The notes under the pieces: generated by a model
Told to the model about the DNA's origin: nothing
Databases searched by the model: none
What the model saw: the letters and a program-made list of their open reading frames with translations, nothing else
Source of the DNA: Candidatus Rokuibacteriota bacterium
Lineage (GTDB): Bacteria > Methylomirabilota > Methylomirabilia > Rokubacteriales > CSP1-6
Assembly: GCA_003220225.1 (NCBI GenBank)
Contig: QHRU01000061.1
Span: forward strand, 1-62,131
Direction: 5' to 3'
Length of the DNA stretch: 62,131 nucleotides
Shown: one piece after another, positions 12,135 to 53,122 of the stretch
How the letters are laid out: each line of letters starts with the position of its first letter
How positions within the stretch are numbered: the stretch's first letter is position 1
Translations under genes and position numbers: made by a program

Positions 12135-12250
12135 TAGATGGGGGGCCCCGACATGGCCCCCCACATTCTTCAAGCGAAGGGGGCTACGCCCCCCTCGGAC
12201 TCCCCCGGCACGCTCGGGGCGCCCCGGCGAAGCCGTGGCACCCCTCGATA
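12135..12250. repeat. dispersed GC palindromic repeat, copy 1
   Basis: A 9-bp perfect stem TGGGGGGCC/GGCCCCCCA with a 7-base loop (12139-12163) is followed by GGGGGCTACGCCCCC-CTCGGACTCCCC (about 12178-12206) and a GGGGCGCCCC block. The same modules recur at 31222-31335, 52406-52477 and 53051-53119. It fills the space between the unknown gene and the convergent LysM gene and may also work as a terminator. Confidence 0.75.
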
Positions 12251-26041: not shown

Positions 26042-26640
26042 GGCTTCGGACTCGTCGGCGTCTTGTCGCCGTCGCCGGCGACCGTGCGGAGCGTGGCCAC
26101 CGAGACCTGGCGGTGATCGCCCCAGCGCACGTGCACGTCCACCTCCCACTGGCGCCATCTCACCGGGCGCCCCTCCACCTCGAGATCCGGCGTGACCACC
26201 TGCTTGATCTCGCGCTCCCACGTGTAGGCGCCCTCGGTGCCGCCGTCGCGGCCCGCCTGCGTCGGCGAGGTGATCTCGCGCGCCTTCAGGTCGGCGAGGA
26301 GCATCGCCTCCTGGTGCTCGCCGGAGAGCTTGAGCAGTCGCAGCCCCGACGCGAAACCCTGGATCGACACCACGATCGCCAGACTCAGAATCGCGAGCGC
26401 GACCAGCACCTCGAGCAGCGTGAAGCCGGAATGATCCCGGCGGCGCCGGCGTGGCCGGGGCGGCGGGGCCCGCCGTTCGACCCGTGTCTTCTGGGTACTG
26501 CGTCGGACCCGGCTCCAAATCGTGGCCCGCTGACAGGCGCAACGCTCAGTCGATTTGCGTGGTCGAACGGCGGGCCCCGCCGCCCCGGCCACGCCGGTGC
26601 GCTGGAACATCCAGGCTGCCCGCCGCCGGAGCGTGTTCAT
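26038..26640 (-). CDS. gspI: type II secretion minor pseudopilin GspI with an abnormally long leader
   Basis: 200 residues from the ATG at 26640, which overlaps the gspH stop (ATGA). The class III motif is SG-FTLLEVLVALAILSLAIVV, but the cleavage glycine is residue 72, whereas GspI leaders are usually under 15 residues. No other in-frame ATG, GTG or TTG lies close before the motif. The extra N-terminal residues are encoded across a perfect 37-bp inverted repeat (26446-26597) whose arms give GVAGAAGPAVRP and RVERRAPPPRPRR. It seems a palindromic element inserted between the original start and the cleavage site without breaking the frame. The rest of the protein (SGLRLLKLSGEHQEAMLLAD, WEVDVHV) is normal. 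Confidence 0.8.
   Translation of the reverse strand: MNTLRRRAAWMFQRTGVAGAAGPAVRPRKSTERCACQRATIWSRVRRSTQKTRVERRAPPPRPRRRRRDHSGFTLLEVLVALAILSLAIVVSIQGFASGLRLLKLSGEHQEAMLLADLKAREITSPTQAGRDGGTEGAYTWEREIKQVVTPDLEVEGRPVRWRQWEVDVHVRWGDHRQVSVATLRTVAGDGDKTPTSPKP
26446..26597. repeat. perfect 37-bp inverted repeat with 78-bp spacer inside the 5' end of gspI
   Basis: Arm 26446-26482 is the exact reverse complement of 26561-26597 (37 of 37 bases). The arms are almost pure G/C (CCGGCGTGGCCGGGGCGGCG...), the spacer is more mixed. No target-site duplication is obvious. It resembles a small MITE-like or recombination-derived palindrome and would form a very strong RNA hairpin between gspH and the mature part of gspI. 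Confidence 0.85.
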
Positions 26641-31221: not shown

Positions 31222-31335
31222 GTGACCGAGGAGCGCCCGGGTCCCCCGGGGCGCTCCGAGCGCTGGCCGGGGGAGTCCGAGGGGGGCGTCGCCCCTTTCG
31301 CTTGAGGAGCTGGGGGGCCATTTCGGGGCCCCCCA
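31222..31335. repeat. dispersed GC palindromic repeat, copy 2 (inverted order)
   Basis: The modules of copy 1 appear here in reverse: GGAGCGCC...GGGGCGCTCC (31231-31250), GGGGGAGTCCGAGGGGGGCG (about 31279-31298), and the stem TGGGGGGCC/GGCCCCCCA with loop ATTTCGG at 31311-31335. It fills the gap between the ZIP and aroQ genes and may terminate ZIP transcription. Confidence 0.75.
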
Positions 31336-31887: not shown

Positions 31888-32925
31888 GTGAAAACCGACG
31901 ACGCCGCCCTCATCGAGCGATGCCGCGCCGGCGACATCACGGCCTTCGAGCCGCTGGTCGAGAAGTATCGCCAACGCGTGTGGCGTCTCGCCTATAACGT
32001 GCTGCGCGATCGGGAGGAGGCGTGGGACGTGTCCCAGGAGGCGTTCGTGCGGGCGTGGCAGGCCCTGCCCAACTTCCGCGGCCAGTCGGCCTTCTACACG
32101 TGGCTGTTCCGCATCGTGATGAACGTGGCGGCCGATCGCGCCCGTTCCCGCGCCGCCCGCGGCCGCGCGTTCGGCACCGAGCGGATCCCGGAGGAGGACT
32201 GGGACCGCGTGCTGGTGGACCAGCCCGCGGAGGCGACGCCCGACGCGGCGGCGGCGGGCGCGCAGCAGCGCGCGCGGATCGAGCGGGCGCTGGCGAGGCT
32301 GTCGGACGACCATCGGCGTATCGTGGTCCTGGGTGACATCGAGGGGCTGTCGTACAAGGAGATTGCGGACGTGTTGGAGATCCCCATGGGGACCGTGATG
32401 TCGCGGCTGCACAACGCGCGCAAGCGCCTGAAGGTGGCCCTCGGCCCGCTGCTGGCCCTGCTCCTGGCGCTCGTGGCCGTGGCGGCGCCGCTGGCCGCCG
32501 ACGCGCAGCAGATCGTGCGCTTCGGCGCCCGCGTGCTGCTGGCCACCGACACGCCGCCGGCGTCGACGTCGCTGCGCGTCGCGCCGCCCGCGCCGGACGA
32601 GCGGCTCCAGGCGTTCCTGCCGCGGCTGCGCCAGCTCACGGGCTACCCGGAGTACACGTCGCTCGAGCGTTATCGCGCGGAGGTGGCGATCGGCTCCGTG
32701 CAGCAGTGGTCGGTGCCGGGTGATCGCATTTTGGAGGTCGTGCCCGAGCGCGTCAGCGGCGACACGGTGCACATGCGGGTGCGCCTGCAGCGGGGCGCGG
32801 TGAACGAGGTCACCACGAACATCCAGGCGGCGCGCGGCAACCCGGCCGTGATCGGCGGGCCGCGCTACGCGGAGGGGGTGCTCGTCATCATCGTCTGGGC
32901 CAACGCCAACCCCGAGCGGCGATAA
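31888..32925 (+). CDS. ECF-type RNA polymerase sigma factor continuous with a secreted-type domain
   Basis: 345 residues, GTG start. Residues 1-85 are sigma region 2 (AFEPLVEKYRQRVWRLAYNV, DVSQEAFVRAWQALPNFRG, FYTWLFRIVMNVAADR), 130-182 are region 4 (ALARLSDDHRRIVVLGDIEG, LSYKEIADVLEIPMGTVMSR). An ordinary sigma factor would stop near residue 185. Instead the frame continues into VALGPLLALLLALVAVAAPLAADAQQ (183-208), which looks like a Sec signal peptide or TM helix, and a 135-residue beta-rich domain (ERLQAFLPRLRQLTGYPEYT, IGSVQQWSVPGDRILEVVPE). The GTG codon 183 (32434) could start a nested secreted protein. No anti-sigma gene is adjacent. Confidence 0.85.
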   Translation: MKTDDAALIERCRAGDITAFEPLVEKYRQRVWRLAYNVLRDREEAWDVSQEAFVRAWQALPNFRGQSAFYTWLFRIVMNVAADRARSRAARGRAFGTERIPEEDWDRVLVDQPAEATPDAAAAGAQQRARIERALARLSDDHRRIVVLGDIEGLSYKEIADVLEIPMGTVMSRLHNARKRLKVALGPLLALLLALVAVAAPLAADAQQIVRFGARVLLATDTPPASTSLRVAPPAPDERLQAFLPRLRQLTGYPEYTSLERYRAEVAIGSVQQWSVPGDRILEVVPERVSGDTVHMRVRLQRGAVNEVTTNIQAARGNPAVIGGPRYAEGVLVIIVWANANPERR

Positions 32926-33352
32926 CGGCGCATCTGCTTCGTTGACTCCGTCGCGCTGCCCTGCGGCGTATGCGGCATACGCCTCGGGCCGCGCTTCCGT
33001 CGTCGCCTCGCATCTGCACCGTTCTCGCCGCTCGGGGCCGCTGCCTCCCATGTGGTGGCGCGCGGCGATAACGGCGCATCTGGTTCGTTGACTCCGTCGC
33101 GCTGCCCTGCGGCGTATGCGGCATACGCCTCGGGCCGCGCTTCCGTCGTCGCCTCGCATCTGCACCGTTCTCGCCGCTCGGGGCCGCCGCCTCACATGGG
33201 TGGCGCGCGGCGATAACGGCGCATCTGGTTCGTTGACTCCGTCGCGCTGCCCTGCGGCGTATGCGGCATACGCCTCGGGCCGCGCTTCCGTCGTCGCCTC
33301 GCATCTGCACCGTTCTCGCCGCTCGGGGCCGCCGCCTCACATGGTGGCGAGC
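32917..33352. repeat. three tandem copies of a 145-146-bp intergenic unit
   Basis: Units begin CGGCGATAACGGCGCATCTG at 32917, 33063 and 33208 and are nearly identical. Unit 1 begins in the last codons and TAA of the sigma gene, and unit 3 ends in the last codons of the convergent cyclase gene, so the whole 411-bp intergenic space is the unit repeated. Each unit has a perfect 8-bp hairpin GGCGTATG-CGG-CATACGCC that may act as a bidirectional terminator. No gene is seen in the interval. Confidence 0.85.
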
Positions 33353-51360: not shown

Positions 51361-53049
51361 ATGCCTCCCCATCGTCTCGCCTACCGTCCGACCGTCATGG
51401 GCCGCCGTGGCGTCGTCACCTCCGCGCATCCGCTCGCGTCGATGGCCGGCATCGAAATCTTGCTGGCCGGCGGCAACGCGGTGGACGCGGCGGTGGCCGT
51501 CGGCTCCACGCTCAACGTCGTCGAGCCGTTCATGTCGAGCGCGGGCGGCATCGGCCTCATGCTGATCTCGCGCGGCGGCGAACGGCACGTGCTCGACTTC
51601 ATCGGCCGCGCGCCGCGGGCCGCCGACGCCGCGGGCTGCACGGAGGACGACCTGGCGGGTGGGCCGAAGTCGTGCGCGACGCCCGGCAACCTCGGCGGCT
51701 GGCTGGCCGCCCTCGAGCGCTTCGGCACCATGGACCGCGCGCGCGTGCTGGCGCCGGCCATCGGCCACGCCGAGCGCGGGGTGCCGCTGACGTTCAAGAA
51801 CGTCGAGTTCTTCGAGGCGGCGCGCGCGACCCTCGGCCGGTCGAGGGAGGCCGAGCGGCTCTACCTCGGCAACGGCGGGCCGCGCGCGGGCGGTGTGGTG
51901 ACCTACAAGGAGCTCGCGGCGACGTTCCGCCAGGTCGCCGAGGGCGGCGCCGAGGTTTTCTACCGCGGGCCGATCGCGAAGGCGATTGCGCGCGCCGTCC
52001 GCGAGGCGGGCGGCTGGCTCGGCGAGGAGGACCTGGCGGAGTTCAAGCCGGAGTGGCGCGAGCCGGCGACGATCGCGTATCGCGGCCAACAGGTCTATTC
52101 GATGCCGCCGCCGTTCTCGGCCTTCCAGATGCTGGAGACGCTGAACATCCTCGAAGGCTACGACCTGCGCGCGTGGGGCCACAACTCGGTCGACTACCTC
52201 CACCACCTGATCGAGGCCGTGAAGCTGGGCTCGGCGGATCGCCTGGCCTACGCGTACTCCGGCCAGGTGCCGATCGCGGGGCTGCTCTCCAAGAAGTACG
52301 CCGACAGCCAGCGCGCGCGGATCGACGCCAAGCGCGCGGCGGTCAGCGAGGGCGAGCGGCACACGCGCGAGCGGCTGCCGAACCAGATCACGGAGGGCCG
52401 ACCATCGACCCGAGAGGGCTACGCCCCCTCGGACTCCCCGGCGACCCGAGAGGGCTACGCCCCCTCGGACTCCCCGGCAAAATTCGCCGACGAGCACACC
52501 ACGCATTTCGCCTGCGCCGACGCCGCCGGCACCGTCGTGTCCGTCACGCAGACGCTCGGCGTGCCGTTCGGCTCCGGCTTCGCGATCCCGGGCACCGGCC
52601 TCGTGCTCAACAACATCCTCAAGTGGATGGACCTCGATCCGGCGTCGCCGAACGTCGTGCGCGCCGGCCGCAAGGCGGGGACGATGATGTCGCCGACGCA
52701 GGTCTTCCGGGACGGCGCCTTTGCCCTGTCGATCGGCACGCCCGGCTCCTACGGAATTCTCCAGACGACGGCGCAGATGCTGCTCAACGTTCTCGAGTTC
52801 GGCATGAACGTCCAGGAGGCGATCGAGGCGCCACGCGTGCGCGTCTATCGCGACCGCCTCGTCGACGCGGAGGCGCGCATCACCCCCGAGGTCCGCGCCG
52901 GGCTGGCCGCGCGCGGCCACCAGGTGAACGAGATTGGCGATTGGTCGTGGATCGTCGGAGGCGGGCAGGGGCTCATGCGCGACGCCGCGTCCGGCGCCCT
53001 CATGGCGGGCGCCGATCCCCGCCGCGACGGCTACGCCGTAGCGATTTAG
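51361..53049 (+). CDS. ggt: gamma-glutamyltransferase family protein with an in-frame repeat insertion
   Basis: 562 residues from the ATG at 51361 after GGAGCC. Large-subunit features: GVVTSAHPLASMAGIEILLA, GGNAVDAAVAVGSTLNVVEP, SAGGIGLMLISRGG. The small subunit would begin at the nucleophile Thr380 (first T of HTTHFACAD), followed by VSVTQTLGVPFGSGFAIPGT and GGGQGLMRD. No signal peptide is seen. Just before the nucleophile, residues about 349-373 are two copies of TREGYAPSDSPA encoded by a 36-bp tandem repeat of the dispersed repeat family; this is the loop near the autocleavage site. Family members hydrolyse or transfer gamma-glutamyl groups, for example of glutathione. Adjacent to the transporter genes. 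Confidence 0.9.
   Translation: MPPHRLAYRPTVMGRRGVVTSAHPLASMAGIEILLAGGNAVDAAVAVGSTLNVVEPFMSSAGGIGLMLISRGGERHVLDFIGRAPRAADAAGCTEDDLAGGPKSCATPGNLGGWLAALERFGTMDRARVLAPAIGHAERGVPLTFKNVEFFEAARATLGRSREAERLYLGNGGPRAGGVVTYKELAATFRQVAEGGAEVFYRGPIAKAIARAVREAGGWLGEEDLAEFKPEWREPATIAYRGQQVYSMPPPFSAFQMLETLNILEGYDLRAWGHNSVDYLHHLIEAVKLGSADRLAYAYSGQVPIAGLLSKKYADSQRARIDAKRAAVSEGERHTRERLPNQITEGRPSTREGYAPSDSPATREGYAPSDSPAKFADEHTTHFACADAAGTVVSVTQTLGVPFGSGFAIPGTGLVLNNILKWMDLDPASPNVVRAGRKAGTMMSPTQVFRDGAFALSIGTPGSYGILQTTAQMLLNVLEFGMNVQEAIEAPRVRVYRDRLVDAEARITPEVRAGLAARGHQVNEIGDWSWIVGGGQGLMRDAASGALMAGADPRRDGYAVAI
52406..52477 (+). repeat. in-frame tandem repeat (2 x 36 bp) of the dispersed family inside ggt
   Basis: Units 52406-52441 and 52442-52477 are almost identical and contain GAGGGCTACGCCCCCTCGGA followed by CTCCCCGGC, the core module of the repeats at 12178-12206 and 31279-31298. 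Each unit encodes 12 residues, so the reading frame is kept. Confidence 0.9.
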
Positions 53050-53050
53050 A

Positions 53051-53119
53051 GGAGCGCCACGGGTTCCCCGGGGCGCTCCGAACGCTGGGGGGTTTGGGGG
53101 GCCATCTCGGGGCCCCCCA
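53051..53119. repeat. dispersed GC palindromic repeat, copy 3
   Basis: GGAGCGCC...GGGGCGCTCC (53051-53079) and the stem TGGGGGGCC/GGCCCCCCA (53095-53119, loop ATCTCGG) follow the ggt stop. The central module is missing. It separates two convergent genes and may act as a terminator. Confidence 0.75.
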
Positions 53120-53122
53120 TAT

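Follow-up and report, generated by a model that had tools for sequence, protein, structure and literature searches.

A dispersed palindromic repeat read as coding sequence beside the predicted cleavage site of a Rokubacteria gamma-glutamyltransferase

A gamma-glutamyltransferase (GGT) gene from a Candidatus Rokuibacteriota bacterium contains, in frame and close to its predicted autocleavage site, two identical tandem units of a palindromic repeat, H2, that is dispersed through the same genome. The segment is missing from the orthologues of related genomes, and solitary copies of the same repeat have entered several other genes. Very probably, a REP-like mobile palindrome was captured in the GGT gene, the unit was then doubled or a second one inserted, and the enzyme probably still cleaves itself. 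The stretch of DNA analysed here (the window; 62,131 nucleotides) is contig C98 of a single metagenome-derived draft assembly of 6.03 Mb in 167 contigs; no second isolate bearing the GGT insert was found.

The GGT insert and its source family

The GGT frame is a full-length match to its Pfam family (G_glu_transpept, PF01019, E=1.8e-120), scores slightly below the cut-off of NCBIfam TIGR00066 (343.4 against 357.85) and has GGT/cephalosporin acylase structures as its closest PDB relatives. The Thr-Thr-His nucleophile motif of the family (Ntn hydrolase, MEROPS T03) is present, as are all invariant residues of a 49-sequence GGT alignment, throughout which T380 and T381 are unchanged. Since the alignment to the small chains of solved GGTs begins at residue 380 and T380 is invariant in the 49 sequences, this residue is the predicted autocleavage nucleophile, in agreement with a first-pass annotation of the DNA.

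The insert (52406-52477) consists of two tandem 36-bp units identical at 36/36 positions, and the direct copies named in that annotation are thereby confirmed within one open frame of 562 codons. Its estimate of about 25 added residues was right as to an in-frame addition and slightly too high as to size, the net gain being 72 bp or 24 residues (about 350-373), with the units spanning codons 349-373. The insert ends seven residues ahead of the scissile bond, where the protein reads EGRPS-TREGYAPSDSPA-TREGYAPSDSPA-KFADEHTTHF, and the predicted peptide of the captured segment is EGYAPSDSPATR. The native A-K-F-A-D-E-H is kept on its 3' side, and the CCCCGGC end of the element overlaps native CC(C/G)GC codons (Pro-Ala). 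As RNA, the palindrome of the first copy is predicted to form a single hairpin of -15.6 kcal/mol.

Table 1 Coordinates of the GGT gene, its insert and the related repeat elements of the window
Feature	Position	Strand	Remarks
GGT gene, Ntn-hydrolase precursor	51361..53049	+	562 codons, single unbroken frame
Tandem unit 1 (CGACC + H2 module)	52406..52441	+	Encodes about S/TREGYAPSDSP; relatives without it
Tandem unit 2	52442..52477	+	Identical to unit 1; encodes ATREGYAPSDSP
Palindrome, H2 copy 1	52410..52432	+	CCGAGAGGGCTACGCCCCCTCGG, then tail GACTCCCCGG
Palindrome, H2 copy 2	52446..52468	+	Then tail GACTCCCCGG
Thr380 codon	52498..52500	+	Predicted autocleavage nucleophile, small subunit residue 1
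Full composite H1-H2-H3, intergenic	12139..12249	+	H2 match at 12182-12205
Full composite H1-H2-H3, intergenic	31224..31335	-	H2 match at 31270-31293
Sister element H1-H3 without H2	53053..53122	-	Directly 3' of the GGT stop codon

The unit comes from an intergenic composite repeat, roughly 113 bp long, whose three hairpins are H1 (GGGGGGCCCCGATATGGCCCCCC), H2 (CGAAGGGGGCTACGCCCCCCTCGGACTCCCCCGG) and H3 (GCTCGGGGCGCCCCGGCGAAGCCGTGGCGCCCCTCG). H2 is a hairpin with a conserved GGGGAGTC tail at one foot, about 32-40 bp in all, and the GGT insert is H2 with its tail alone, without H1 and H3. Within the unit, the roughly 32 bp that belong to H2 match an intergenic copy on contig C31 exactly, the reversed-pattern control gave 0 matches in 6 Mb, and the tail CCCTCGGACTCCCC is common to all four H2 copies of the window. 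Both 36-bp units begin with a CGACC leader, which is missing from the C31 copy; on their left side, some other solitary copies have a similar (T)TGACC. The module had been placed at three other intergenic positions in the window, two of which hold (Table 1); the third is the sister element H1-H3, which has no H2. This two-hairpin form is also found on contigs C53, C33, C117, C42, C1, C95, C93, C26 and C113, and the mixture of two- and three-hairpin forms suggests that H2 is gained or lost as a module.

A genome-wide count of the module, which the first-pass annotation had proposed as a check, gave at least 42 copies of H2, 32 of them in composites and ten solitary; it showed both a dispersed family and additional copies in frame within other genes. 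The tally comprises 32 sites that match the 13-mer GGGGAGTCCGAGG exactly, eight one-mismatch sites with a hairpin and two variants (C94:49456 and C97:57881); the remaining one-mismatch sites have no hairpin and were set aside as chance matches. All 32 composite copies are apparently intergenic, and none passed a codon-model test for gene location, the pattern of which was too strict for the GT9, hyuA and second fdhA copies; these were recovered by reading each locus. The composite also occurs in other Rokubacteria genera, and the window contains no Rfam match at the gathering score. Some two-hairpin copies stand in tandem with the three-hairpin form, with the flanks TCATCGATCGTCGTG...GACACAGGATGTCTCATCG between them. 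A second composite type, with H2 placed after a different hairpin (CTCGGAGGGGGGCTTCGCC...), was seen at C62:35485 (L005), C144:1216 (L197), L207 and L218, and is spread over several Rokubacteria genera.

The insert is missing in every Rokubacteria orthologue read (about 35 sequences, the same genome being present twice in some cases), and the region follows the pattern EG(H/P/Q)PA-x-F-xxE(H/Q/S)TTHF. Among these are two congeners, 94% and 89% identical, which carry an unbroken EGHPAKFADEHTTHF at the insert site. The more distant homologues of the 49-sequence alignment likewise gave no support for conservation of the segment, so the refuting condition named in the first-pass annotation, when put to the test, did not refute capture. 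Capture of a dispersed repeat as coding sequence, as first proposed from the letters of the window, is thus backed both by the exact match on C31 and by orthologues that read without the segment.

Solitary copies in other genes

Eight of the ten solitary H2 copies overlap genes, namely GGT (two), fdhA (formate dehydrogenase alpha, two sites), GT9 (glycosyltransferase-9), hyuA and the C-termini of a cupin protein and a CoxS-like protein; the other two (C62:35485 and C144:1216) adjoin another hairpin and look intergenic. At the first fdhA site the protein reads SMLTP-PGEYEGGVAPLTRTA-RNGF, compared with SMLTPAPHRNGF or SMLTPAGERAGDRNGF in congeners, and at the second WYAKP-HLFQARGATPPSELPRG-SCLIWG, where relatives have WYA(K/R/Q)PPF(A/S)GSCLIWG. 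GT9 has gained 13 codons (VAASV-DRGGLTPPSDTPGA-PGRDVW; VAPSVAPGCDVW in a congener), and hyuA reads ETAM-GESEGGLPLGQ... compared with ETAMAEAEEGLVRH in a congener. All of these internal insertions, including that of GGT, keep the frame and are missing in the same-genus orthologues read. At gene ends, H2 makes the C-terminus of the cupin protein, whose gene adjoins that of LigA (ASPGESEGGVAPLAR followed by the stop), and supplies the TAG stop of the CoxS-like 2Fe-2S protein.

Every genic copy retains the tail and the hairpin, with H1 and H3 dropped, and between them these copies use both orientations and several frames. Since five of the six reading frames of H2 are free of stop codons, insertions of compatible length can be translated through. 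The sister genome G002 has a separate H2 variant at a different site in fdhA (VREGESEGESEGGLPLGQKGG). In another genome (G005, locus L242), fdhA carries an insert of another kind, GC-rich and hairpin-coding (KTEASSGGGLRPHEDT), at the position of the first insertion described above, so this loop may be an insertion hot spot.

Consequence for the enzyme

Compared with the nearest congener, the GGT gene has a dN/dS of 0.13 in the part upstream of the insert and of 0.05 in the part downstream, values in which a very recent loss of function would be invisible because the averaging covers mostly pre-insertion time. With a third genome as outgroup, no acceleration was found in the lineage of the GGT gene relative to that congener. 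The gene is therefore under purifying selection (dN/dS 0.05-0.13), with no relaxed selection. An AlphaFold2 model built on the 49-sequence alignment has a mean pLDDT of 90.6 and falls below 50 only at residues 351-376; its predicted fold matches GGT and cephalosporin acylase, including the precursor mutants 4y23 and 2e0w. The fold thus appears normal in the model, with predicted disorder confined to residues 351-376. In Escherichia coli GGT, cleavage is followed by an outward flip of the P-segment, the C-terminus of the large subunit; in Bacillus GGTs this segment, where length varies naturally, carries additional sequence (PMC8062742).

Taken together, dN/dS, the predicted fold and the movement and length variation of the P-segment make tolerance of the insert plausible, and the earlier suggestion that the enzyme may tolerate it gains inferential backing from dN/dS and AlphaFold2. 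Because the predicted disordered loop sits at a place of variable length among GGTs, folding and self-cleavage are probably retained, and we infer normal maturation with the insert in place. The contrary reading, a decaying pseudogene in which the insertion disables autocleavage and the frame survives by chance, draws on the proximity of the insert end to the scissile bond, seven residues away; it is improbable given an intact 562-codon frame with all invariant residues kept, a low dN/dS without acceleration and a confidently predicted fold. Selection for the insert itself, through changed maturation or substrate access and beyond mere tolerance, has only a slim chance of being correct: the insert does occupy a segment that moves on maturation (PMC8062742), and two copies have been kept, but the same peptides occur in unrelated proteins and in different frames, which favours neutral tolerance.

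Mechanism and relation to known palindromic repeats

In the explanation we prefer, H2 alone, without its usual neighbours H1 and H3, would have inserted at the codons for the C-terminus of the GGT large subunit, presumably by transposition. The 36-bp unit would then have been doubled in tandem, possibly by slippage, or a second unit would have inserted alongside. The added stretch of 24 residues would be a disordered loop within the segment terminating at the scissile bond, H379-T380. An assembly artefact, in which repeat copies were looped or joined within GGT during short-read assembly, might be suspected from a metagenome-derived draft of 167 contigs and the repetitive nature of H2. It is very unlikely in view of the GGT sequence in correct frame on both flanks, a length of 72 bp that one short read can span, and comparable in-frame inserts both in at least four further genes and in an independent genome. 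Another reading treats the segment as GGT coding sequence that was duplicated in tandem or expanded locally, its likeness to the intergenic repeat being a coincidence of high GC content. This would suit the perfect tandem pair and the chance origin of short GC palindromes in GC-rich genomes, but is scarcely credible against about 32 bp of identity to an intergenic copy with a reversed-pattern control of 0, a tail shared by all four window copies and relatives that have no precursor sequence at the site. Local duplication is refuted as the origin of the unit, yet it is likely the cause of the second copy: since both copies share the CGACC leader, tandem doubling of the 36-bp unit is the simplest account.

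The Y1/RAYT transposase (PF01797) was absent from the genome under study (G000) and from two congeners (G001 and G002), with positive controls, and a search of this genome and 39 relatives found it absent from the genus and present in some other lineages. A RAYT-driven REP was rejected on this ground. No transposase candidate having emerged, we infer the mobility of H2 purely from its distribution. No clear target-site duplication was seen at the filled and empty sites compared (GT9, fdhA and GGT). It is possible, though doubtful, that REP-like palindromes of Rokubacteria move without Y1/RAYT, the solitary hairpin entering genes and the three-hairpin form staying intergenic; if true, this would be an undescribed way to move short palindromes and would steadily supply the proteins of this phylum with new loops.

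The best-known protein-coding palindromes are those of Rickettsia and of a handful of other bacteria. The Rickettsia palindromic elements (RPEs) are described as in-frame insertions in many genes in a review, PMC10969869, that cites Ogata et al. 2000, 2002. On the description given there, H2 resembles them in being a lineage-specific palindrome that lies in frame within unrelated protein genes, contributes a peptide and is tolerated by the host protein; this RPE-like behaviour was found in GGT, fdhA (two sites), GT9 and hyuA, the two being likened by mode of action only. They differ in that RPE-1, as portrayed there, is about 150 bp with one preferred peptide frame, whereas H2 is 32-40 bp and uses several frames and both orientations, and in that the H2 host is a GC-rich free-living bacterium of a different phylum. 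Like miniature inverted-repeat elements (MITEs), H2 is a small non-autonomous repeat able to fuse with host ORFs in frame (PMC10969869); MITEs have terminal inverted repeats with target-site duplication, and no clear duplication was seen at the H2 sites compared.

GTAG/CGTC REPs also occur inside ORFs in several species, often as dimers encoding 20-30 residues and sometimes supplying stop codons (PMC3733652). H2 shares with REPs a hairpin of 20-40 bp, a conserved single-stranded tail at one foot and a mainly intergenic position near gene 3' ends, and with intragenic REPs the single, double or grouped occurrence in ORFs, the 20-30 amino acids and the stop codons in some cases (PMC3733652). As a short, dispersed and mainly intergenic palindrome (at least 42 copies, 32 in intergenic composites) it is REP-like; unlike REPs, its tail is GGGGAGTC and not GTAG or CGTC, GTAG being found in H2 only at the loop, it usually sits within a three-hairpin composite, and its genus has no detected Y1/RAYT transposase. 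Because H2 lacks both the REP tag and RAYT, and RPEs were compared by mode of action only, we regard it as a new family of the known protein-coding palindromic repeats and not as an RPE or a GTAG REP.

New here are the repeat family, its phylum, the GGT site and a genus without a detected Y1/RAYT transposase. The repeat-driven protein change is real, and cases of its kind are already on record for Rickettsia and a few more bacteria. The phrase "caught in the act" in the first-pass annotation suits a lineage-specific insertion with two identical copies; the phenomenon itself is already known (PMC10969869, PMC3733652). As a second clear system, found in a phylum that is free-living and GC-rich, the case shows empty and filled sites between congeners, and it opens questions about the route of repeats into genes, how often they are tolerated, and whether a self-cleaving enzyme can accommodate 24 additional residues where its large subunit ends.

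Two further repeat structures were noted in the window. At 32908-33343 a sequence of about 145 bp is repeated in three direct tandem copies of 94-100% identity, which extend from just past the end of a sigma-factor-like ORF (31888-32925) to where an adenylate-cyclase/ATPase-like ORF of the opposite strand has its 3' end. Arms of 40 nt at 26443-26482 and 26561-26600, 98% complementary and 78 nt apart, would form a large hairpin.
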